Source of the DNA: Akkermansia muciniphila | Lineage (GTDB): Bacteria > Verrucomicrobiota > Verrucomicrobiia > Verrucomicrobiales > Akkermansiaceae | Reading direction: 5' to 3' | DNA length: 64,000 bases | Assembly: GCF_040616545.1 (NCBI RefSeq) | Contig: NZ_CP156688.1 | Coordinates: forward strand, 2,666,001 to 2,730,000 | Part shown: positions 4,715 to 49,924 of the stretch, piece by piece | Layout: every line of letters starts with the position of its first letter | How positions within the stretch are numbered: position 1 is the first letter of the stretch | The notes under the pieces: model-generated | The model's database searches: none | Told to the model about the DNA's origin: nothing | Seen by the model: only the letters and a program-made list of their open reading frames with translations | Made by a program: the position numbers and the translations under genes

Positions 4715-5023
4715 ATGTCACCCTTCCAAGCCCCCATGAGCAGCAAGCTTCCCATTCCGCCCCAAGGCCCCAAACAGCAATTGCTGGCCAGGGCCGTCAA
4801 TTATTTCCGCAGCCGGGAAGGAGAACCGCGCCTGTTTACCAAACGCAAGCTTGTTCTTCTTATCCTGACGGCGCTCTATGCCTTTTCCCCCATTGACCTG
4901 ATTCCGGACTTCATCCCCGGAGTAGGCCAGATAGATGACCTGACCGTCATCGCCTTTGCGTTCCTGGCCATGTTCCTGCCCCCCATCAAGAAGGACGGCT
5001 CCCATGAAGACCCGGAACCCTGA
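4715..5023 (+). CDS. DUF1232 (YkvA-like) small membrane protein
   Basis: A 102-residue protein with the DUF1232 signature: KLVLLILTALYAFSPIDLIPDFIPGVGQIDDL, a hydrophobic helix running into the conserved S-P-I-D-L-I-P-D-x-I-P-x-x-G-x-x-D-D motif, followed by a second hydrophobic helix. It is probably an inner-membrane protein of unknown role. The start is uncertain: ATG at 4715 or at 4736, and the frame is open to 4613. It lies 23 bp before the DUF4230 gene, so they may be cotranscribed. Confidence 0.82.
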   Translation: MSPFQAPMSSKLPIPPQGPKQQLLARAVNYFRSREGEPRLFTKRKLVLLILTALYAFSPIDLIPDFIPGVGQIDDLTVIAFAFLAMFLPPIKKDGSHEDPEP

Positions 5024-5046
5024 GCTTACCGCCCGTACAGCTTTTC

Positions 5047-5739
5047 ATGAGTGATTCCCCGCCATCCTTCCTCCATTCCCCCTCCGTCATCGCCCTGGTG
5101 AAAGGAGCCGTCCTGATTGGCGCGCTGGCCGTGTTGGTCTGGGGGGTGCGTTCCTGCCTGACGGCTCCGGTGGAAAAACCGATGGAGGTGGCGGGAAAAT
5201 TGATTGAGGCAGGCAGGGAGTTGGGGCTGACATTGATCAACAAGGGTTTTTCCACAGACCACGGCGGCGTGGCCCTGATCGTGCAGAAGGATGAAAAAGT
5301 AGCCAACCTGGTTACCGTGGAACGGACGTTTGAGTACGAATACCGCTATTCCACCACTTGGTGGTGGAGCAAAAAGACGCTGGTCCTGAAAGCGGCCTAC
5401 CGCGCCCACGGGGGCATCGACCTGGAGGGCCCCGAGCCGCTCCGGATCATCATTCCCGCGGAGAACAAGGGTCCCATCACCGCAGAAGGTCTTCACGGAA
5501 AACTGATTTCCTGCGAGATGGTGGAAGGCTCCCTCCGCGTCGTGAGGGATGACGCCGGAATTTGGAATAGGCTGACCCCGGAGGACTCCGCCATCGCCGT
5601 CAACCAGTTGAATGAAAGCGCCCGGAAGCACATCATGGAGAGCGATTTAAAACGCCAGGCGGAAGAAAATTTCATGCGCCGCCTCCGGGAAGAAGCACGG
5701 CAGCCGGAAGAGCAATCAGGAAAAGACCGCTGGTTCTGA
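5047..5739 (+). CDS. DUF4230-like membrane-anchored protein
   Basis: A 230-residue protein with one N-terminal membrane helix (about residues 17-37, ALVKGAVLIGALAVLVWG), then a periplasmic or surface domain resembling DUF4230: a VTVERTFEYEY strand, a basic W-W-W-S-K-K-T-L segment and a Lys/Arg/Glu-rich helical tail. The family has no established function. It follows the DUF1232 gene by 23 bp. The assignment is by overall pattern and is moderate. Confidence 0.65.
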   Translation: MSDSPPSFLHSPSVIALVKGAVLIGALAVLVWGVRSCLTAPVEKPMEVAGKLIEAGRELGLTLINKGFSTDHGGVALIVQKDEKVANLVTVERTFEYEYRYSTTWWWSKKTLVLKAAYRAHGGIDLEGPEPLRIIIPAENKGPITAEGLHGKLISCEMVEGSLRVVRDDAGIWNRLTPEDSAIAVNQLNESARKHIMESDLKRQAEENFMRRLREEARQPEEQSGKDRWF

Positions 5740-5820
5740 TGCATGCTCATGGAGCGCAGCTCCTCATTCCGTTCTTTTATCTTGCCAAAACAGTCCGCGT
5801 CCTATAAAGGAACGCACGTC

Positions 5821-7068
5821 ATGGCCCATTTAACATTCACCCCTCCCACGGACGGCGCAGCCGTCACCATGCAGAACGGCAGGCTTTGCGTTCCGGACAG
5901 GCCCGTCATCCCCTTCATCATCGGTGACGGAACCGGGCCTGAAATCTGGGCGGCGGCTTCCCGGGTGATTGACGCGGCTGTGAAGAAGGCGTACCGGGGC
6001 AAGCGTTCCATCGCCTGGTATGAAGTTTTTGCCGGGCAGAAGTCCTTTGACAACCTGGGAACCTGGCTTCCCAACGAGACGGTGGAAGCCTTCCGCACGT
6101 ATCTGGTAGGCATCAAGGGGCCCCTCACCACCCCGGTGGGCGGCGGCATCCGCAGCCTGAACGTCACGCTGCGGCAGGATCTGGACCTGTTCGTCTGCCT
6201 GCGCCCGGTGCGTTATTTCAACGGCATTGAAACACCCGTGAAAGCCCCGGAGAAGGTGGACATGGTCGTTTTCCGGGAAAACACGGAGGACATTTACGCC
6301 GGAATCGAGTTCAAGGAAGGCTCCGAGGAAGCCAAGCTGTTTTTCGACACCATGAACCGCATCTTCCCGGACCGCATGAAGAAGGTGCGCTTCCCGGAAA
6401 GCTCCGGCTTCGGCATCAAGCCCGTTTCCCGGGAAGGCACGGAGCGCCTGGTGCGCGCCGCCATTGATTACGCCGTGGAGAACGGCCGCAAGAGCGTCAC
6501 GCTGGTGCACAAGGGCAACATTATGAAGTTCACGGAAGGCGGCTTCCGCGACTGGGGGTACGACGTCGCGCGCCGGGAATACGGCGCCCAGCCCATCGGA
6601 GACGGCCCCTGGATGAAGCTTCCCAACGGAATCGTGGTCAAGGACTGCATTGCAGACGCCTTCCTTCAGGAAATCCTGCTGCATCCGGAAAACTTTGACG
6701 TGGTCGCCACGCTGAACCTGAACGGGGATTACATTTCCGACGCCCTGGCGGCTCAGGTGGGCGGCATCGGCATCGCCCCCGGCGGCAACATCAATTACCT
6801 GACGGGCCATTCCATCTTTGAAGCCACGCACGGCACCGGCCCCAAACTGGCCGGACTGGACAAGGCCAATCCCAGTTCCGTCATCCTGTCCGCGGAAATG
6901 ATGCTGCGCTACATGGGCTGGACGGAAGCGGCGGACCTGCTGATTCAGGCCATTGACCGGGTGATTGCCGCAAAAACCGTCACGTTCGACCTCGCGGAAA
7001 TGATTCCCGGCTCCACGGAACTTTCCTGCTCCGCCTATGGCGACAAGCTGGTGGAAGCCCTGAGCTGA
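5821..7068 (+). CDS. icd: Isocitrate dehydrogenase (NADP-type)
   Basis: A 415-residue TCA-cycle enzyme that oxidatively decarboxylates isocitrate to 2-oxoglutarate. It has [13 protein letters not shown] near the N-terminus, the substrate motif [13 protein letters not shown] (Ser112, equivalent to the regulated serine of E. coli Icd), [13 protein letters not shown], and the cofactor segment HGTGPKLAG. The lysine after GTGP favours NADP, although the neighbouring tyrosine of E. coli is leucine here. The frame opens at 5743, but homology begins near the ATG at 5821. It stands alone, followed by a VOC-protein gene 118 bp downstream. Confidence 0.95.
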
Positions 7069-7186: not shown

Positions 7187-7630
7187 ATGAAGAAGAGCAT
7201 GAACAGAATGAACATCATCTGCCTTGGAGTCAGGGACATGAAGAAGGCCCTGCAATTTTACCGTGACGGGCTCGGTTTTAAAACGGACGAGACGGGCGAC
7301 CACCCGGACGTTGTCTTTTTCAGCACTCCCGGCACGAAGCTGGAATTGTATCCGCTGGATTTGCTGGCAAAAGACATCAACGGGGAGAATCCTCCCCCCA
7401 TCGGTTCCGGATTCGGAGGAATCACGCTTGCCTATAACGCAAAAACGAAAGAGGAAGTGATTGAAGTCATTGAACTGGCCCGGAATGCGGGGGCCAGGAT
7501 CGTGAAGGAACCCCAGGATGTTTTCTGGGGCGGCTTCCACGGCTATTTTGCGGACCCGGACGGCTATTACTGGGAGGTCGCCTGGGGGCCGAACGATGAA
7601 TTTGACGACCGGGACATGCTCGTCCTGTAA
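7187..7630 (+). CDS. VOC-superfamily (glyoxalase-like) protein
   Basis: A 147-residue protein with the paired beta-alpha-beta-beta-beta modules of the vicinal-oxygen-chelate fold: an N-terminal ICLGVRDMKKALQFYRDGLGF and a C-terminal GYFADPDGYYWEVAW, which carries the usual metal-ligand Glu. Substrates of this family range from methylglyoxal-glutathione to antibiotics and cannot be told apart here. I start at the ATG at 7187; another Met follows four codons later. The frame extends upstream to 7112 without family similarity. Confidence 0.85.
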   Translation: MKKSMNRMNIICLGVRDMKKALQFYRDGLGFKTDETGDHPDVVFFSTPGTKLELYPLDLLAKDINGENPPPIGSGFGGITLAYNAKTKEEVIEVIELARNAGARIVKEPQDVFWGGFHGYFADPDGYYWEVAWGPNDEFDDRDMLVL

Positions 7631-7636
7631 CCGGAA

Positions 7637-7682
7637 TTTATTTAAATAAAAGGGCTGCCGCTCCATATCAAGGCAACGGCAG
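7637..7682 (-). terminator. Putative terminator of the act cluster
   Basis: On the minus strand a CTGCCG/CGGCAG stem (7655-7660 with 7677-7682) with a 16-base loop is followed by CCCTTTTATTTAAAT. It lies 74 bp past the stop of the last act-cluster gene, between convergent genes. The stem is short, so this is a moderate call. Confidence 0.5.
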
Positions 7683-7755
7683 ACCGCAATGTTTCCTGAG
7701 GAACGGCGTCATTCCTTCAAGGCCGCCGCTCTTGTCCAGCCGCTCTCCTTTTCCG

Positions 7756-10092
7756 TCAGTTCATAGGGTTCCGGCGGATGGCGTCTATCTGTTCCGGCGT
7801 ATAAGCCGCCTTTTCCAGGCCGCCGAACTGGCGGCGCAGGAACGTGAGCAGGTTCGCCAGGTCACGGGAGTCAGTAACGCCGGGCGGCAGCATGGTGGAA
7901 TCCCATTCCTTTCCGTTCACCGTGATCGGTCCGGTAAGCCCCTGGAGGACGATCTTCACGATTTCCGCGTCAGGTTTTTCCTTCAGCCATTCGGACCCGG
8001 CCAGGGGCGGATAGGTCACCTTGTCCCCCATGCCGTCGTTGCCGTGGCAGATGGCGCATTTGGAAAGGTACACGCCCCTGCCCTTTTCCATGACAGCGGC
8101 GGCACGGGCCTTTTTCAGGCGTTCCATGTCCACGGCGGGAGGATGGGCGGCATAATCCGGATGAATGTGTGACAAGGCCGGGAAGGAATGGATCCGGTCG
8201 CGCTTCACGGAGGGCTCCACCCTCCGGAGGGAAGCCAGGTAGTTCAGCAGCCGCTCTCCCCGCGGGGACGGAACCAGCTCCCGGCCCTTCTCCATCCGGA
8301 CAGGCAGGGCAGCCGTGGAAGGGGCATTCCCCTCCACCGGGCGTTCCTCAAACAGGCCGGGCATGGCGGGGCACACGGTCCAGGGCTTTTTGAACTGCGC
8401 TTCCCGCGGGTTGTATAGATGCAGGGCCAGCCATTCCCGCACCTGCGCGGCACGGAGCGTGCCGCCGGATACGGCGTCTTCATATTCCAGCCTTCCGGCG
8501 GCGTATTCCGCCGCATTGCTCAGGTCTGGGCCTATGGCCGCCACGCCGGCCTGCGGGGCCCCCTCCCTGTTGAATTCGGCATCCATGTCTTCAGGTTCAC
8601 TGACGCGGTAGGGAAAATCCGGGTCCGTCCCGCGGTCGATCGCCGTCTGCCAGTCCCTGCCGGACATGGAACGCCGGATCATCTGCGTATGGCACAGGGC
8701 GCACCCCTCCGCGGCATAAATCCGGGCTCCTTCCGCGTCCTGGACGGGGCGCCTCACCTCCAGGGAATCCGGAGCCGGGGCATGCAGCAGCACGGCGGCG
8801 GCCGTCACCAGCGCAAGCGCCGCAAAAACGGTAAAGACGGAAAAAAGGCGCCCGGTCACCGGAGTTCCCGTTTCCGGCGCTCCGGCCTCCGTACGCGCCG
8901 GACGCCACAGGCAAAGACTCCCCGCCAGGCACAGCGCCATGGCGGCGGCATGGACGCAGGCCGCCATGCCCACCCAGCCGCTCATCAATTCCGCTCTCCG
9001 GGCCACGGGAAAGGCCTGCACATCCACCGCGGCGACCACGCCCACGGCATAAGCCAGCAGCACGCCGCAAACGCCCGCAGAAAACAGCCACCATGCCACG
9101 GGAAACCGTGCGGGGCCTTTCCTCCCGGCCATCATCAGCACGCCCGCGCCCAGCAGCACCCACAATTCCGCCTCATGCCACGCGGACAGGGAGAATTGCA
9201 TCAGTTCCGGCCAGGAGCCGGAGAGAACATTCCACGCCGCCAGCAAGGCGAGCACGGAGCAGCCGGCTTTCAGCCACGTTCCCATTCCCGGTTCCGGACA
9301 GGGTTTCATCCAAAGCCTTGCAGCCATCAGCACGGCGGGAAGAGCGGCGCACCAGGCCCAGACCGCTCCCGCCTCCACCAGCGCCCACGGCACCGGAAAA
9401 CCGCGGAGCCCCGCCAGGCCGCCAATCACCGGAGCCGCCAGCAACACCACGGCCATCCAGACAGACAAAATGCCGAACATCCGGCCCTGCGCCATGTTCA
9501 TGCGGAGGGCCGCCGCACCCAGCGCGGCAAACATCAGCCCGCAGGACAGGGAGCCGCCCAGGGAGGAGGCGTCCAGCAAGCCGTTCATGGACAGGGCCTG
9601 CGTATCCCCCAGCATCAGGAGAGCCGCCGCCACGCAACCCGCGGAAGAACTGAACAGCAGGCGCACGGGCCATGGAAAGGGCTTGAACCACGCGGCGCAC
9701 GCCATCCCGGCGGAAAGGAGGGCAAAAACCGGGCAAACCCACCAGTCAAAAGGCATCAGGAGGAGGCCGCTCCCGTCTCCCGCGGCTATCGTCCCCAGCC
9801 CCAGCAGGACACAGGCATGCCAGAGCCATTCCGCGGGTTTCAGCCATCGCCCCCCAGGTTCCGCCATGAAAGAGAACAGGACGGGGAGAGCCCAGCCGTA
9901 CACCAGGGCGCCGTAAAAGGAAAACATGAGCCGCCCCGCCGGCCAGGGGAGCGGTTCCCCAGCCACCAGTCCGGAGGCATGGACCAGGGACCACGCCAGC
10001 CCCAGCACGCAGGCCGCCGCCAGCCAGAACAGGGGCAGCCACTCGCCCGGACGGCGGCGGAACAGGGAGGAAACGGAGGCGGAAAGGTTCAT
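7756..10092 (-). CDS. Degenerate CcoN/CcoO/cytochrome c fusion protein
   Basis: A 778-residue membrane protein, the last gene of the act cluster; its ATG overlaps the actF stop by 4 bp. Residues 1-435 are 11-13 membrane helices resembling cbb3 oxidase subunit I. GRLMFSFYGALVYGW (53-67) matches the CcoN segment GRLRPLHTNAVIFAW, but the low-spin haem His is Phe. By eye the CuB histidines correspond to Gly180 and to Val222/Ile223; of the helix-10 G-H-V-H pair only His306 remains. Residues 455-590 resemble CcoO, with haem site CALCH at 464-468 and HLYNPR at 558-563. Residues 670-760 form a second cytochrome c with CAICH at 679-683. Known CcoN proteins reduce O2; this one probably cannot, and may instead anchor two c haems that accept electrons from the Act proteins. 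Confidence 0.75.
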   Translation of the reverse strand: MNLSASVSSLFRRRPGEWLPLFWLAAACVLGLAWSLVHASGLVAGEPLPWPAGRLMFSFYGALVYGWALPVLFSFMAEPGGRWLKPAEWLWHACVLLGLGTIAAGDGSGLLLMPFDWWVCPVFALLSAGMACAAWFKPFPWPVRLLFSSSAGCVAAALLMLGDTQALSMNGLLDASSLGGSLSCGLMFAALGAAALRMNMAQGRMFGILSVWMAVVLLAAPVIGGLAGLRGFPVPWALVEAGAVWAWCAALPAVLMAARLWMKPCPEPGMGTWLKAGCSVLALLAAWNVLSGSWPELMQFSLSAWHEAELWVLLGAGVLMMAGRKGPARFPVAWWLFSAGVCGVLLAYAVGVVAAVDVQAFPVARRAELMSGWVGMAACVHAAAMALCLAGSLCLWRPARTEAGAPETGTPVTGRLFSVFTVFAALALVTAAAVLLHAPAPDSLEVRRPVQDAEGARIYAAEGCALCHTQMIRRSMSGRDWQTAIDRGTDPDFPYRVSEPEDMDAEFNREGAPQAGVAAIGPDLSNAAEYAAGRLEYEDAVSGGTLRAAQVREWLALHLYNPREAQFKKPWTVCPAMPGLFEERPVEGNAPSTAALPVRMEKGRELVPSPRGERLLNYLASLRRVEPSVKRDRIHSFPALSHIHPDYAAHPPAVDMERLKKARAAAVMEKGRGVYLSKCAICHGNDGMGDKVTYPPLAGSEWLKEKPDAEIVKIVLQGLTGPITVNGKEWDSTMLPPGVTDSRDLANLLTFLRRQFGGLEKAAYTPEQIDAIRRNPMN

Positions 10093-43901: not shown

Positions 43902-46151
43902 ATGTTCAAGCTTTCCTTCCATTTTTTTCCATTCCTGTGCTTCCTGACAGCACAGTTTTCTCTATCCTTCGCAAAAACGGTGGAGTATGATTTGTATGTC
44001 CGGGACGCTCCGGTTAATTTTACCGGAGTCACGCGCCCGGCCATGACCATCAACGGGAGCATTCCCGGCCCCACCCTGCATTTTACGGAGGGGGATACGG
44101 CCGTGATACGGGTGCATAACCTGATGGATACGGAGACGTCCTTCCACTGGCACGGCCTGCTGGTGCCCAATGACCAGGACGGCGTGCCCTACCTGACTTC
44201 CGCCCCCGTGAAGCCCCATACCACGCATACTTATACTTTCCCTATTATCCAGAACGGCACATACTGGTACCATTCCCACAGCGGCCTTCAGGAGCAGAGC
44301 GGGCTGTACGGCGCATTCGTCGTCCGCAAACGGCCCGGCGACCCGGCGCGCAGAACGGAAGACGCCCTGCCGGAGTATACGCTGGTGCTGAGCGACTGGA
44401 CCAACGAGAATCCCAACGAGGTCAACAGGAAGCTTCACACGGGTTCGGACTGGTTTTCCATCCGCAAGGGGAGCGTGCAGAGCTACTGGGAGGCCCTGCG
44501 TGCCGGGTACCTGGGAACCAAGCTGACCAGCGAATGGAAGCGCATGAACGCCATGGATGTGAGCGACGTGTTTTACAACCGCTTTCTCCTGAACGGAACC
44601 CCTCAGGCTTCCCTGCCTCGGCTGAAGGGCGGCGACCGCATCAGGCTGCGCATCGTCAACGGAGCTTCTTCCACGTATTTCTGGCTGAGGTACGCTGGCG
44701 GCAAGATCCGCGTGGTGGCGAGCGACGGCAAGGACGTGGTTCCCGTGGACGTGGACCGCATGATTATTGCGGTTTCCGAGACTTATGATTTGATCCTGAC
44801 CGTGCCGGAGTCCGGCAAATCCTTTGAGTTCCAGGCGACGGCGGAGGATACCACCGGGTCTTCCTCCCTGTGGCTTGGCCATGGGGAGAAGCAGCCGCTG
44901 CGCCCCTTTCCCAAACTGAATTATTTCAAGAAGATGAAGGAGATGAACGGGATGATGACCATGGGCGGCAATATGAAGATGATGAAGATGAATTCCGGCC
45001 CCATGTCCCGCCAGATGCATCATCACGGCATGTCCGGCGGCATGCCGGCCTCCCATTCCGGAAATATGGGGATGATGGATATGAAACCCGGTTCCTCCCA
45101 CGGAGGAGGCCATGGGAACATGCAGGAGGACGGGGAGGGAACCACCCTGACTTACGATATGCTGAAGTCCCCCTCCCGCACCAACCTTCCCTCCGGCGTT
45201 CCCGTGAAGGAGCTGCATTTCATGCTGACCGGGAACATGAACCGCTACGTGTGGAGCATGAACGGGAAGACTCTTTCAGAGACGGACCGCATCATGATCA
45301 AGGAAGGGGAGAATGTGCGCATTATCCTGACCAATAATACCATGATGAGGCATCCCATGCACCTGCACGGCCATTTTTTCCGGCTGGTGAACAGGCACGG
45401 GGATTTTTCACCGCTCAAGTTTACGGTGGATATCCAGCCCATGGCCACCCAGGTGATTGAGTTCAACGCCGCAGAGAAAACGCGCGGCAACTGGTTTTTC
45501 CACTGCCATATCCTGTACCATATGATGAGCGGCATGGGGCGCATTTTCACGTATGAGGATTCTCCGCCCAATCCGCAGCTTCCCCATCCCATGCGCGCGC
45601 TTCAGCGCGTTTACGATATGGACCGGATGTGGTACCTGACCGTGAATAATGATTTTGCGTCCAACGGGAATATAGGGGATCTGGAGTTCGGGGGCACCCG
45701 CTGGAGCATACAGGGGGAATGGCAGATAGGCTACAAGGATACCCATGGTTATGAGGCGGAGGGACGGCTGGGCAGGTACATCGGAGAAAAGCAGTGGCTT
45801 TATCCCTACATCGGCGTGGATTGGACCTACCGCAAGGGGGAGGCGGGGGAACGCAACATGTTCCGCCAGACCACTAAAAAGGACCGGGAAGTGGACGGCA
45901 CCCTGGGCGCCCGGTACACGCTCCCCATGTTCCTGATTGCTGACGCGCGCATTGACACGGACGGAAAGGTGCGCCTGCAATTGGAACGGGACGATATTCC
46001 GCTTACCTCACGCCTGCGCCTGTCCTTTTCCCTGAATACGGACCGGGATTATTCCGTGGGCCTGCATTACATCCTGACCTCCCACCTCAGCATTTCCACC
46101 AATTACGACAATAACCTGCACTGGGGCGTGGGCCTGATGCTGACCTATTGA
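43902..46151 (+). CDS. Multicopper oxidase fused to a CopB-like beta-barrel domain
   Basis: A 749-residue exported protein. A signal peptide (residues 1-24) precedes a three-domain multicopper oxidase with all copper motifs: HWHG (82-85), WYHSHSG (122-128), HPMHLHGHFF (about 484-493) and HCHILYHMMSGM (about 532-543), the type 1 site with Met ligand. A Met/His-rich stretch (about 345-405, with M-x-x-M repeats and HHHGM) resembles the copper-loading region of CopA. Residues 567-749 are not part of any oxidase: they alternate short amphipathic strands, include LYPYIGVDWTYRKGE (cf. CopB YIGVEW) and end in aromatic VGLMLTY, like an outer-membrane barrel. The natural separate CopA and CopB seem to be one polypeptide. 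The start at 43902 has a distant GGAGGT; the frame opens at 43824. Confidence 0.85.
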   Translation: MFKLSFHFFPFLCFLTAQFSLSFAKTVEYDLYVRDAPVNFTGVTRPAMTINGSIPGPTLHFTEGDTAVIRVHNLMDTETSFHWHGLLVPNDQDGVPYLTSAPVKPHTTHTYTFPIIQNGTYWYHSHSGLQEQSGLYGAFVVRKRPGDPARRTEDALPEYTLVLSDWTNENPNEVNRKLHTGSDWFSIRKGSVQSYWEALRAGYLGTKLTSEWKRMNAMDVSDVFYNRFLLNGTPQASLPRLKGGDRIRLRIVNGASSTYFWLRYAGGKIRVVASDGKDVVPVDVDRMIIAVSETYDLILTVPESGKSFEFQATAEDTTGSSSLWLGHGEKQPLRPFPKLNYFKKMKEMNGMMTMGGNMKMMKMNSGPMSRQMHHHGMSGGMPASHSGNMGMMDMKPGSSHGGGHGNMQEDGEGTTLTYDMLKSPSRTNLPSGVPVKELHFMLTGNMNRYVWSMNGKTLSETDRIMIKEGENVRIILTNNTMMRHPMHLHGHFFRLVNRHGDFSPLKFTVDIQPMATQVIEFNAAEKTRGNWFFHCHILYHMMSGMGRIFTYEDSPPNPQLPHPMRALQRVYDMDRMWYLTVNNDFASNGNIGDLEFGGTRWSIQGEWQIGYKDTHGYEAEGRLGRYIGEKQWLYPYIGVDWTYRKGEAGERNMFRQTTKKDREVDGTLGARYTLPMFLIADARIDTDGKVRLQLERDDIPLTSRLRLSFSLNTDRDYSVGLHYILTSHLSISTNYDNNLHWGVGLMLTY

Positions 46152-47557: not shown

Positions 47558-49924
47558 TCAAAGCTGCATGGCAACGTTTTTGTTTTCCTGGTTCCTCCTG
47601 ATGGTCACTTTCAATTCGCCGGAGGGCGGCAGAAGCTGTTCCAGGCTCTTCACCCCGCGCACCTTGCGACCGTCCACCGTCAGAAGCACGTCGTTGGGCT
47701 GAATGCCGGCGGAGGAACACGGGCCATCCTTCTGCACCTTCACTACAACCAGCGCACTGCCCAGGTCTTCCGGCATCAGCCCGAAAACGGACAAGTCTCC
47801 CTCGCCTTCCGCCACCCTCACTTCAGCGCCCAGCCTGCGCACCTGGACCGCCGCGGGAGCCGTGCCCCCCTTTTTTCCGCTGTTCCCGGCGGTTCCCGGA
47901 ATGTCCGGCGTTCTGGCCAGGGCTTTCAAATGCGGGGAACGCACGCCGAAACGGTTCATCGGGAAGTTGCGGAAGCCCAGCTTGAGCGCCGGGGAGGAGG
48001 AGCGGACGGAAAAGTCACCTTTGCCGGGATTTACAAAGAGGGCATCCCCTTTTATGGAACGCCGGTCGTTCCCGGACTGTCCCGCCAGTCCGGAGGCCTT
48101 TTCCGTATTTTTCATCCCTTCCGCATGGACGAAATTCCTGTCCATATTCTTTCCCCACGGGGAAAAGTCCATCTTGCCCGCCTGGCGGTAGCGGTCTTCA
48201 AAAACAATGTTGCTGTAAAATTCATCCCCGCTTTCCCGGAACCACACGTGCGGATGCAGCGTGTTGTTCACAAAAATGTTGTTGTACACCTTCCGGAAGA
48301 ATCCCTCACGGAGCTTGAGTCCGGAGGAGAGCATCACATTATTGCAGATCACATAGTTGGAGGACCCATCGTCCAAATCCACATCCCACCCGTGGTCACA
48401 CCGCCAGCGGTTGGTCCGGAGCACATTGGGCTGAAGGCAATCCAGCAGCACCACATTCCGGTCCTGGCTCAGCGCCATCTGGTCCCCCGCCCAGTACCGG
48501 TCCCGGCCCCAGGAGTTGAAGGAGCCATGGTCGCTGGTTTCCCTCACCGTATCAAAGACATCGCAATATTCCACAACATGGCCGCCAAAGGCCCCCTCCC
48601 CGATGTTGATGCCCGCACGCGGGACCTCGTAAATGGAACAGCTGCGGACGGTAATATTCCGCGCCAGGGAGATTTGCACCCCGGCCGTCTGCTTTTCAAC
48701 CAGTCCCGTGCGCCAGATCAGGCAGTCGTCCACCAGGCAGGTGGACGGGAATTTCCCGTTTTTGGGCCCCGGCGTCCTGTCCAGCTTCTCCAGGGCCATT
48801 CCCCGGGCTTCCCCGTAGTCCCTGGGTCCCCGGTAGGCGGAACGGTCCCCCACCAGGGCCACGCCGTTTCCCCCCACTTCATGGATGTGGCAGGAGCGAA
48901 CCTGGGCACGGTCATTTTTCCCATCCACAAAGACGGCATTCCCTCCCAGATGGACGAACTCACAGCCCAGGATACGGCAGTTTTCCGTATTCCGCAGCAG
49001 AACGGCCCCGCTGCGGAAGATGGTCCAGTCACTTCTCAGCAGGGGTTCCCGGTTTTCCATGAAGGTGCGCCGCGTTCCGGTCAGCACCAGGTCGCGGAGA
49101 GTGACGTTTTTCACGGGTGCGCCTTCCTTCCCCTGAAGGCGGACCAGCTCCGGAAGCCCGGCGGCTTCCACCACGGCCCGGGATAAATCCGTGCCCGGTT
49201 CCGGATACAGGTAGAGCACGTTTTCCCGCCTGTCCAGATACCATTCCCCGGGAGCATCCAGTTCCTCAAAGATGTTTTCCACAAATTTGTACCTGTCATG
49301 CGGAGGCGAGGGACGGTTGTTCTGCCAGCCGCCCTCCGTGACCAGGCTGTCCCCCTTTTTGCCGGTGATGCGGAAGTGCATGTCCCCCCACATGCGCGCA
49401 TGAAGGGCGTGCAGGAATCCTCCTTCCGGATTTTTCCAGCGCGCCACGCGCTGCGGGCTGTCCGCGTCCGCAGATGTTCCGTTGAAGATGCGGGCCTCCG
49501 GGTCATGGTTGGGGTACCGGGCCATGTGCATGGGTTTTCCATTAACCATCAGCACATCCATTTCCAGTCCGGCGGGTACGGAAGCCTTCATGATGCCGTC
49601 CCTGAACGGCTGCCAATCCGCGGAGAACGGCACGGCACCGCTCAATACCGCCCTGCCCTGGTTTTGGGCGCGGATGGTCAGTCCGGAATGCTCCGGACGA
49701 AGGGCCAACGGTTCCCGCAGGTAGTAAACGCCGTCTGCCAAAATAACCTGGCATTTTCCCCGGGCACCTTCTCCGGCTTTCCGCACGGCGGCTTCCACGG
49801 AACGCATGGGGAGCTCTTCCGTTCCCGCATGGGAGTCATTCCCGGCGGGGGAAACAAAAATATCCGCGCCCCATACACAGGAGGCGCACCACAGCATCCC
49901 CCAAAGACAGTTAAAACCATTCAT
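47558..49924 (-). CDS. Secreted right-handed beta-helix protein with C-terminal PDZ domain
   Basis: A 788-residue exported protein. A signal peptide (residues 1-19) leads to ADIFVSPAGNDSHAGT, a common start of parallel beta-helix polysaccharide-active proteins. The pattern LTIRAQNQGRAVLSGAVPF, APGEWYLDRRENVLYLYPEPG and the Asn-ladder coils (about 265-600) resemble GH141/GH110-type beta-helix glycosidases, but I cannot fix the family or its catalytic residues. The last 90 residues (about 695-788) form a PDZ domain: LVVVKVQKDGPCSSAGIQPNDVLLTVDGRKV. A beta-helix with a C-terminal PDZ is unusual. A glycan substrate is likely given the mucin-related genes, but unproved. It is convergent with dgt. 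Confidence 0.78.
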   Translation of the reverse strand: MNGFNCLWGMLWCASCVWGADIFVSPAGNDSHAGTEELPMRSVEAAVRKAGEGARGKCQVILADGVYYLREPLALRPEHSGLTIRAQNQGRAVLSGAVPFSADWQPFRDGIMKASVPAGLEMDVLMVNGKPMHMARYPNHDPEARIFNGTSADADSPQRVARWKNPEGGFLHALHARMWGDMHFRITGKKGDSLVTEGGWQNNRPSPPHDRYKFVENIFEELDAPGEWYLDRRENVLYLYPEPGTDLSRAVVEAAGLPELVRLQGKEGAPVKNVTLRDLVLTGTRRTFMENREPLLRSDWTIFRSGAVLLRNTENCRILGCEFVHLGGNAVFVDGKNDRAQVRSCHIHEVGGNGVALVGDRSAYRGPRDYGEARGMALEKLDRTPGPKNGKFPSTCLVDDCLIWRTGLVEKQTAGVQISLARNITVRSCSIYEVPRAGINIGEGAFGGHVVEYCDVFDTVRETSDHGSFNSWGRDRYWAGDQMALSQDRNVVLLDCLQPNVLRTNRWRCDHGWDVDLDDGSSNYVICNNVMLSSGLKLREGFFRKVYNNIFVNNTLHPHVWFRESGDEFYSNIVFEDRYRQAGKMDFSPWGKNMDRNFVHAEGMKNTEKASGLAGQSGNDRRSIKGDALFVNPGKGDFSVRSSSPALKLGFRNFPMNRFGVRSPHLKALARTPDIPGTAGNSGKKGGTAPAAVQVRRLGAEVRVAEGEGDLSVFGLMPEDLGSALVVVKVQKDGPCSSAGIQPNDVLLTVDGRKVRGVKSLEQLLPPSGELKVTIRRNQENKNVAMQL

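Follow-up and report, generated by a model that had tools for sequence, protein, structure and literature searches.

A likely natural PcoA-PcoB (CopA-CopB) fusion in Akkermansia muciniphila, widespread relatives, and an accompanying change of export signal

Introduction

Can a periplasmic multicopper oxidase and an outer-membrane copper pore be one protein? The question is raised by a gene at positions 43902-46151 of a 64,000-nucleotide stretch of Akkermansia muciniphila DNA (NCBI RefSeq assembly GCF_040616545.1, contig NZ_CP156688.1, positions 2,666,001 to 2,730,000; hereafter, the window). An original prediction, made from the letters of the DNA, read the product as a CopA-like multicopper oxidase joined to a CopB-like barrel, an arrangement that would place copper oxidation at the outer membrane in one molecule. 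The computational analysis reported here indicates that the gene probably encodes a natural one-chain PcoA-PcoB (CopA-CopB), which would oxidize Cu(I) where an outer-membrane copper pore opens to the periplasm.

In Escherichia coli, Caulobacter, and others, PcoA and PcoB are two separate proteins, and PcoA is described as carrying a twin-arginine translocation (Tat) signal (PMC7558416); the same source cites a suggested role of the CopD permease in cytoplasmic copper loading. PcoB is a 12-stranded, OMPLA-like barrel with periplasmic termini that allows copper flux under an applied gradient and, when present alone, sensitizes to copper; its structure paper argues that the energy source for export is not known (PMC9210255). 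The authors of the Caulobacter study assign PcoB to efflux, report that its N-terminal tail stabilizes PcoA, and propose a docking site or direct contact (PMC12509749). The direction of copper movement through PcoB (export or import) and its contact with PcoA are thus disputed, and a chain in which the oxidase is fixed to the pore makes both directly testable. The fused architecture is already known in print, briefly. Fused PcoA-PcoB was noted in five Legionella species in 2012 (PMC3548706), and residues 611-809 of the Bizionia argentinensis oxidase G2EDV6 were described in 2024 as porin-like with some PcoB similarity (PMC11213822); in the passages of that paper on this protein, it is treated as a periplasmic oxidase and the fusion is given no interpretation. 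In the literature searched, mostly titles and abstracts with few subscription journals, we met no account of the breadth of the fusion or of a switch in export signal.

Results

One open frame joins a complete oxidase to a predicted 12-stranded barrel

Counted from the ATG at 43902, the frame encodes 749 residues and stops at 46149-46151; translation could also begin at an upstream ATG (43824) or at a TTG picked out by eye (43896). The oxidase proved complete with all its copper motifs, as had been predicted: the Pfam domains Cu-oxidase_3, Cu-oxidase, and Cu-oxidase_2 scored 153.6, 99.9, and 59 bits, respectively (cut-offs 21, 20.4, and 21), and the His, Cys, and Met residues named for the copper motifs in Table 1, which we take to be the copper ligands, did not vary among 56 aligned sequences that include the window's own. 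The best NCBIfam model was the copper-resistance oxidase TIGR01480 and, judged by sequence score, the oxidase is a close relative of these CopA/PcoA proteins that is not filed as a member. The Met-rich loop of the original prediction was recovered as a long insert with His residues as well. The corresponding Met/His-rich insert spans 236 and 201 residues in the Acidobacteriota loci L080 and L083, compared with 28-38 in several Verrucomicrobiota relatives. The signal peptide would presumably be cleaved after SFA.

The rest of the chain was modeled with AlphaFold2 on an alignment of the window protein and 55 of 72 homologous frames (three that contain X, in L067, L098, and L127, and 14 others judged alike by eye were omitted). 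The whole-protein model (predicted local distance difference test score, pLDDT, 87.2; predicted template-modeling score, pTM, 0.86) showed a helix at residues 563-573 and then twelve strands from 578 to 748. An oxidase on its own would be expected to yield a lower pTM than this full-length value, which suggests that the model places the barrel relative to the oxidase with some confidence, as judged from pTM rather than from a predicted aligned error. Because the top 50 Foldseek matches of the whole model were multicopper oxidases only, with no barrel among them, the barrel domain was also modeled alone, and twelve strands appeared again (pLDDT 90.5, pTM 0.80). When this domain was compared with 350,542 PDB chains, the top Foldseek match was PcoB (7PGE; E 2.5e-5, template-modeling score 0.50), with the best OMPLA row ranked below it (E 9.7e-4); VIA likewise placed 7PGE first (Z 15.1, root-mean-square deviation 3.2 over 156 residues, 18% identity). 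The strand alternation that had been read in the last ~180 residues thus corresponds to ~172 residues in 12 predicted strands, in each of which the mean hydropathy of alternate positions differs by 1.4 to 5.9 units (a figure without a shuffled control); also as predicted, the last residue is aromatic (Tyr).

Table 1. Features of the fused gene, in window coordinates
Feature	Positions	Strand	Residues and basis
Fused multicopper oxidase-barrel gene	43902..46151	+	749 aa; single open frame; homologues full length in one frame; start codon unproven
Predicted signal peptide, Sec type, without twin-arginine motif	43902..43973	+	Residues 1-24; sequence reading, motif scan, helix 4-20 in model
Multicopper oxidase domains	43974..45554	+	Residues 25-551; Pfam Cu-oxidase_3, Cu-oxidase, Cu-oxidase_2; TIGR01480 under cut-off
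Copper motif HWHG	44145..44156	+	H82, H84 invariant, n=56
Copper motif WYHSH	44265..44279	+	H124, H126 invariant, n=56
Met-/His-rich, mostly disordered insert	44919..45152	+	About residues 340-417; 18 Met, 6 His; pLDDT < 50 at 360-411
Copper motif HPMHLHGH	45351..45374	+	H484, H487, H489 invariant, n=56
Copper motif HCHILYHMMSGM (Cys, His, axial Met)	45501..45536	+	H534, C535, H536, H540, M545 invariant, n=56
Short linker with predicted helix	45555..45632	+	Residues 552-577, helix 563-573; AlphaFold2 model
Predicted 12-stranded outer-membrane barrel, PcoB/CopB-like	45633..46148	+	Residues 578-749; AlphaFold2, Foldseek, VIA, hhalign

The barrel resembles CopB/PcoB most clearly in profile comparisons

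The C-terminus alone matched the Pfam families OMP_b-brl (E 0.0019) and CopB (E 0.025), both below cut-off; it had no match in NCBIfam, and a single-sequence search of the PDB returned none, so that matches came from profiles alone. CopB was matched at E values up to 0.1 by 6 of 13 homologous C-termini, including that of the window (best 1.6e-9). A Pfam CopB search of 39 relatives picked up hardly any fusion (1 of 39 genomes), which means that Pfam names alone would miss the fused family. A CopB-profile search of the window's own genome was empty, though it was run without a positive control. By comparison of alignments with hhalign, the 56 fused barrels were collinear with standalone CopB (23 rows, drawn from an Akkermansiaceae bin and gammaproteobacteria) over 133 columns, with a probability of 93.5 and E 2.3e-7. 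The proposed profile check against CopB therefore gave a divided answer: the relationship stood between profiles, whereas the window's score of 14.6 bits lay under the Pfam cut-off of 27 for CopB (PF05275). The standalone CopB alignment found 7PGE in the PDB at E 9.5e-85, and OMPLA was not among the 10 PDB hits (E up to 10) of the fused-barrel profile. Across the 56 barrels, domain positions G118, P124, G191, and G193 are invariant, and G59, E67, G87, and R153 are conserved in at least 90%. These comparisons point to a diverged CopB/PcoB relative that lies outside Pfam's curated boundary.

One item of the original prediction fell away. The YIGVDW stretch had been offered as a CopB-type motif; it sits in strand 5, the APYIGVNW-type motif of CopB lies near the C-terminus, and the collinear alignment pairs YIGVDW with a different stretch of CopB. 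On these alignments the resemblance looks like coincidence, and the conclusion of a CopB-like barrel stands without it.

The oxidase and barrel are joined by a linker with a median of 21 residues (n=56; 26 in the window, with 4 His/Met), in which His and Met are only slightly enriched (6.6% compared with 4.1% in the barrel, 56 sequences).

Fused frames recur across phyla and have split counterparts

The original prediction had called for homologues with and without the fusion and had named a merger of two genes by stop-codon loss or sequencing error as a hazard to it. Both forms were found, the fused one in ten named phyla and split CopA-CopB neighbors elsewhere, and full-length single frames are present in the genus, in other Verrucomicrobiota, in Bacteroidota, and among the best loci of a much broader collection. 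Matches occurred in 13 of 39 genomes, the window's own and 38 of its relatives. Of 14 genomes from the order but not the genus, 10 matched; the match lies in a frame of 710-790 aa in nine of them, and in the tenth it is just a fragment within a 140-aa frame. A barrel-only profile run on 288 Verrucomicrobiota genomes gave 32 rows in 28 genomes, 28 of the rows in frames of at least 700 aa. These long-frame rows include one with a TGA inside the match (G145) and two that represent one gene split over two frames (G121); the other four rows were a frame with a stop (G294), frames of 77 and 198 aa, and G231. Among the loci kept, 26 of 30 carry, in one frame, the oxidase HCH motif followed by over 170 residues, the exceptions being G145, G294, G288, and G231, the last of which is a true standalone CopB behind an oxidase. 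This split pair (L229, 732-3285), in a small-genome Verrucomicrobiota, has an oxidase with a Sec-like signal and a His-rich C-terminus, and is possibly an intermediate between the split and fused forms. At L061, a Verrucomicrobiaceae bin, two different fused oxidase-barrel genes lie in tandem (4756-6759 and 7270-9603).

In 198 Bacteroidota genomes the barrel profile gave 54 rows in 45 genomes. Forty of the 42 strong rows (at least 114 bits) lie in frames of 710-966 aa, each with both oxidase motifs and the barrel; the remaining two run off a contig or comprise two adjoining frames. A further row is a 47-aa fragment. Another eleven rows, all weak, are in shorter frames (255-317 aa); each of the five that were read stands behind a same-strand oxidase frame, and the three of these run on Pfam matched CopB at 218-259 bits. 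From a collection of 84,980 species, the best 80 loci were picked by similarity to the junction and barrel, a choice biased to fusions. Under a strict motif rule, 71 of the 80 are single frames; ten named phyla account for 68 of these, and the other three come from records that give no phylum. The other nine were full length with a changed motif (four), ran off the locus end (three), or lacked the N-terminal part (two). Many of these loci are metagenome bins, and phyla with a single record could reflect misbinning. A plasmid of Ilyobacter (Fusobacteriota) also bears a fusion.

At standalone CopB loci, a same-strand oxidase frame lies directly upstream in 23 of 24 cases, and the remaining one is at a contig edge; the split gene order is the domain order of the fusion. 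In 94 genomes of the gammaproteobacterial class we found standalone CopB plus six fused frames of 784-926 aa, with C-termini that score 79-111 bits as CopB and cover its model from position 5-25 to 206-208 of 208. By hhalign, these barrels match standalone CopB better (E 2.5e-19) than they match barrels of the window's type (1.7e-7). They are of the same general kind as the Legionella one-chain proteins described in PMC3548706, which join PcoA and PcoB as the window protein does; in the window's branch the barrel is shorter and more diverged. The Bizionia protein has the architecture of the window protein and belongs to the same large fused group: locus L125 (strain JUB59) encodes 809 aa, equal to the length given in PMC11213822, and is presumably the G2EDV6 gene. 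The window's copy belongs to a different subclade, in which the loop that joins strands 5 and 6 is longer. A rooted tree, built by a quick method with long branches in its outgroup from 35 of the 80 fused rows of a 107-row tree and four plasmid rows, joined the gammaproteobacterial fusions to split CopAs (Shimodaira-Hasegawa-like approximate likelihood ratio test, SH-aLRT, 97). It favors two fusion events; a single common fusion clade was not rejected (approximately unbiased test, p 0.36). Locus L098 was excluded from the trees.

Fusion accompanies near-absence of the twin-arginine motif

No twin-arginine motif was found by motif scan in the signal region of the window protein, which thus departs from the Tat signal of described PcoA. 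For the comparison across homologues, the pattern was sought in up to 100 residues ending 40 residues ahead of HWHG. On the fused side, 72 frames came from the 80 loci (nine gave no motif-rule frame and one gave two); gammaproteobacterial split CopAs came from 20 of the 23 loci with a standalone CopB (all but L151, L159, and L162), with a second oxidase without a CopB partner in L223 excluded, and the Sphingomonas plasmid pair L135 unscanned. All 20 gammaproteobacterial split CopAs had the pattern, and none of the six gammaproteobacterial fusions did. Bacteroidota gave the same contrast (5/5 split CopAs, 0/29 fusions), and a separately drawn sample of 40 Bacteroidota fusions, which shares one gene with the 29, had none. 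Pooled without those 40, the motif occurs in 25 of 26 split and 1 of 79 fused oxidases (Fisher p about 7e-22, uncorrected for relatedness). These scans show, at the level of the motif, that fusion accompanies a change in export signal, seen as a near-absence of the Tat motif.

Because a chain that ends in an outer-membrane barrel must travel unfolded through the general secretory (Sec) pathway, the fused oxidase would be loaded with copper in the periplasm, and fused oxidases very likely cannot be loaded in the cytoplasm. TatC is present in the window's genome; CopD was not detected there, in a search that was positive in 7 of 14 control genomes. The signal switch bears on whether such oxidases need cytoplasmic copper loading.

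The window's copy resembles Bacteroidota genes and has been lost from some relatives

In tblastn, the window protein shares 50.6% identity with a Flavobacterium plasmid protein and 51.7% with a Pontibacter protein; in alignments, the figure is 56% for a Bacteroidia bin (L110) and 36-43% for homologues of its own order outside the genus. The window's copy and a genus relative group with two Bacteroidota rows in the 107-row tree (SH-aLRT 100), and the outgroup-rooted tree places the window's copy inside a seven-row set (SH-aLRT 100). The loop between strands 5 and 6 has 20-24 residues in the window and in the Bacteroidota loci L104, L110, and L131; it has 14 in one Verrucomicrobiota row and is shorter still in the other 51 of the 56. 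Tree, identity, and loop suggest that the window's copy was likely acquired by transfer from Bacteroidota, with a plasmid perhaps as the vehicle and with the direction presumably from Bacteroidota to the window's lineage. On each of three Bacteroidota plasmids, a relative is found a few kb or less from a gene for a copper or heavy-metal P-type ATPase; two of these plasmid copies are near DUF3347 genes too, and one is near a resistance-nodulation-division (RND) pump gene. Metal-sensor-type genes are near the fusion on the Fusobacteriota plasmid. A record titled Akkermansia muciniphila (L063) has an oxidase part identical in the 107-row tree to that of G034, from another family of the order, and its title may be a misnomer.

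Among 76 genomes of the genus, 12 match: nine are intact, one has an in-frame TGA, and two hold barrel remnants only. Twenty-one of the 76 fall outside the class of 90% completeness and 5% contamination, and within that class the tally is 12 of 55. The remnants (L209 in G061, 2738-2905; L210 in G441, 2692-2781) lie between EamA transporter and HD phosphohydrolase genes, which are also the nearest flanks of the window's gene; since they lie between the same two genes, the fused gene was once present in both genomes and then lost. Locus L214 (G145) is a copy of 91% identity with one in-frame TGA, which may mark a recent pseudogene or an error of assembly. Two copper ATPases in the window's own genome score above the TIGR01511 cut-off; in contig coordinates, both lie more than 1 Mb from the fused gene.

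Discussion

We regard as probable, from sequence and structural models, that the window's gene encodes a natural one-chain PcoA-PcoB. The chain would leave the cytoplasm unfolded via Sec; its C-terminal part would form a 12-stranded outer-membrane barrel, and the N-terminal oxidase would fold and acquire its coppers in the periplasm. With a short linker and both barrel ends on the periplasmic side, the oxidase would sit at the inner mouth of the barrel. There the Met-rich loop would gather Cu(I), the oxidase would turn it into less toxic Cu(II) with O2, and Cu(II) would be handed to, or released at, the pore. We infer the outer-membrane location, the Cu(I) substrate, the periplasmic copper loading, and the passage of copper through the barrel with its direction; in the models, placement of the oxidase at the outer membrane would follow from the architecture, with the barrel termini periplasmic. 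The split PcoA/PcoB of E. coli, Caulobacter, and others has a homologous oxidase and 12-stranded barrel in the same order, in two proteins with a Tat signal on PcoA (PMC7558416), whereas the fusion is one chain without a Tat motif. Natural tethering of oxidase to pore argues for PcoA and PcoB acting in contact.

Several observations weigh against this reading. The oxidase scores 409.2 bits against TIGR01480, below its cut-off of 478.95, and the barrel is likewise under the CopB cut-off. OMPLA (1QD6), also a 12-stranded barrel, is level with PcoB by VIA (Z 15.0), a likeness that Foldseek ranks under PcoB. The fused-barrel profile found 7PGE at E 0.0015, second to the designed barrel 9FDG, and because a designed barrel outranks PcoB, barrel-general signal contributes to the PDB profile scores. 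The disordered, His/Met-rich N-terminal region of PcoB, 109 residues in Caulobacter (PMC12509749), is lacking from the fusion, where the short linker stands in its place; a covalent link would make such a docking tail unnecessary. In the Tat comparison, the pattern occurs in one of the 72 fusions, the second copy in L061, where a likelier Sec start lies downstream of it, and the sole Verrucomicrobiota split CopA (L229) is without it. One of 30 fusion-bearing genomes has a standalone CopB too. No copper genes were found among the six flanking genes tested at the window locus. Finally, most genomes of the genus are without the gene and some carry a decayed copy, and for that reason the fused gene is not essential.

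Of the alternatives, the one that fares best, possible though doubtful in our view, is that the barrel is a mere outer-membrane anchor, its copper pathway lost, that holds the oxidase at the membrane. The fused barrels are indeed shorter and diverged, the window's is below the CopB cut-off with low identity to PcoB over the aligned residues, and the window is without a His/Met-rich tail; yet the twelve strands are kept, and the invariant and highly conserved positions seem to be more than a bare anchor would need. A guarded importer, in which the pore admits Cu(II) and copper that enters or is close by is held as Cu(II) by the tethered oxidase, we judge doubtful too. The flux through PcoB under a gradient, the sensitization by PcoB alone, and the energy source said to be missing for export (PMC9210255) speak for import, and the role in efflux that its authors assign to Caulobacter PcoB (PMC12509749) speaks against it. 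It is unlikely that the chain is a redox-driven exporter, in which oxidation of Cu(I) by O2 releases Cu(II) into the barrel mouth and in which fusion forced the change from Tat to Sec; the O2 chemistry would supply the driving force said to be missing from PcoB-mediated efflux, and the fused proteins would be an evolutionary record of PcoA and PcoB always working in contact. Less probable again is an oxidase at the outer membrane that acts on iron, manganese, or phenols instead of copper. The sub-cut-off score against the copper-resistance subfamily TIGR01480 and the lack of a copper gene among the six neighbors tested would suit it, but the Met-rich insert is as in copper oxidases, the partner is homologous to a copper channel, and relatives on three Bacteroidota plasmids and the Fusobacteriota plasmid lie near copper, heavy-metal, or metal-sensor-type genes. 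A stop-codon loss or sequencing error that merged two genes, for which split neighbors elsewhere are the only cue and no support was found, is ruled out for practical purposes by the full-length fusions in many genomes and phyla (9/76 in the genus, 26/30 in Verrucomicrobiota, 40/42 strong rows in Bacteroidota, 71/80 best loci).

The one-chain PcoA-PcoB that we prefer would thus be a copper-tolerance gene in a probable gut commensal, probably gained from Bacteroidota and lost in some relatives.

Other features of the window

A promoter and terminator scan at the locus gave nothing beyond chance. On the minus strand, 47561-49921 encodes a protein that has a right-handed beta-helix match and, at its C-terminus, a PDZ domain, and on the plus strand the C-terminal part of the product of 41819-42805 matches DUF5655.

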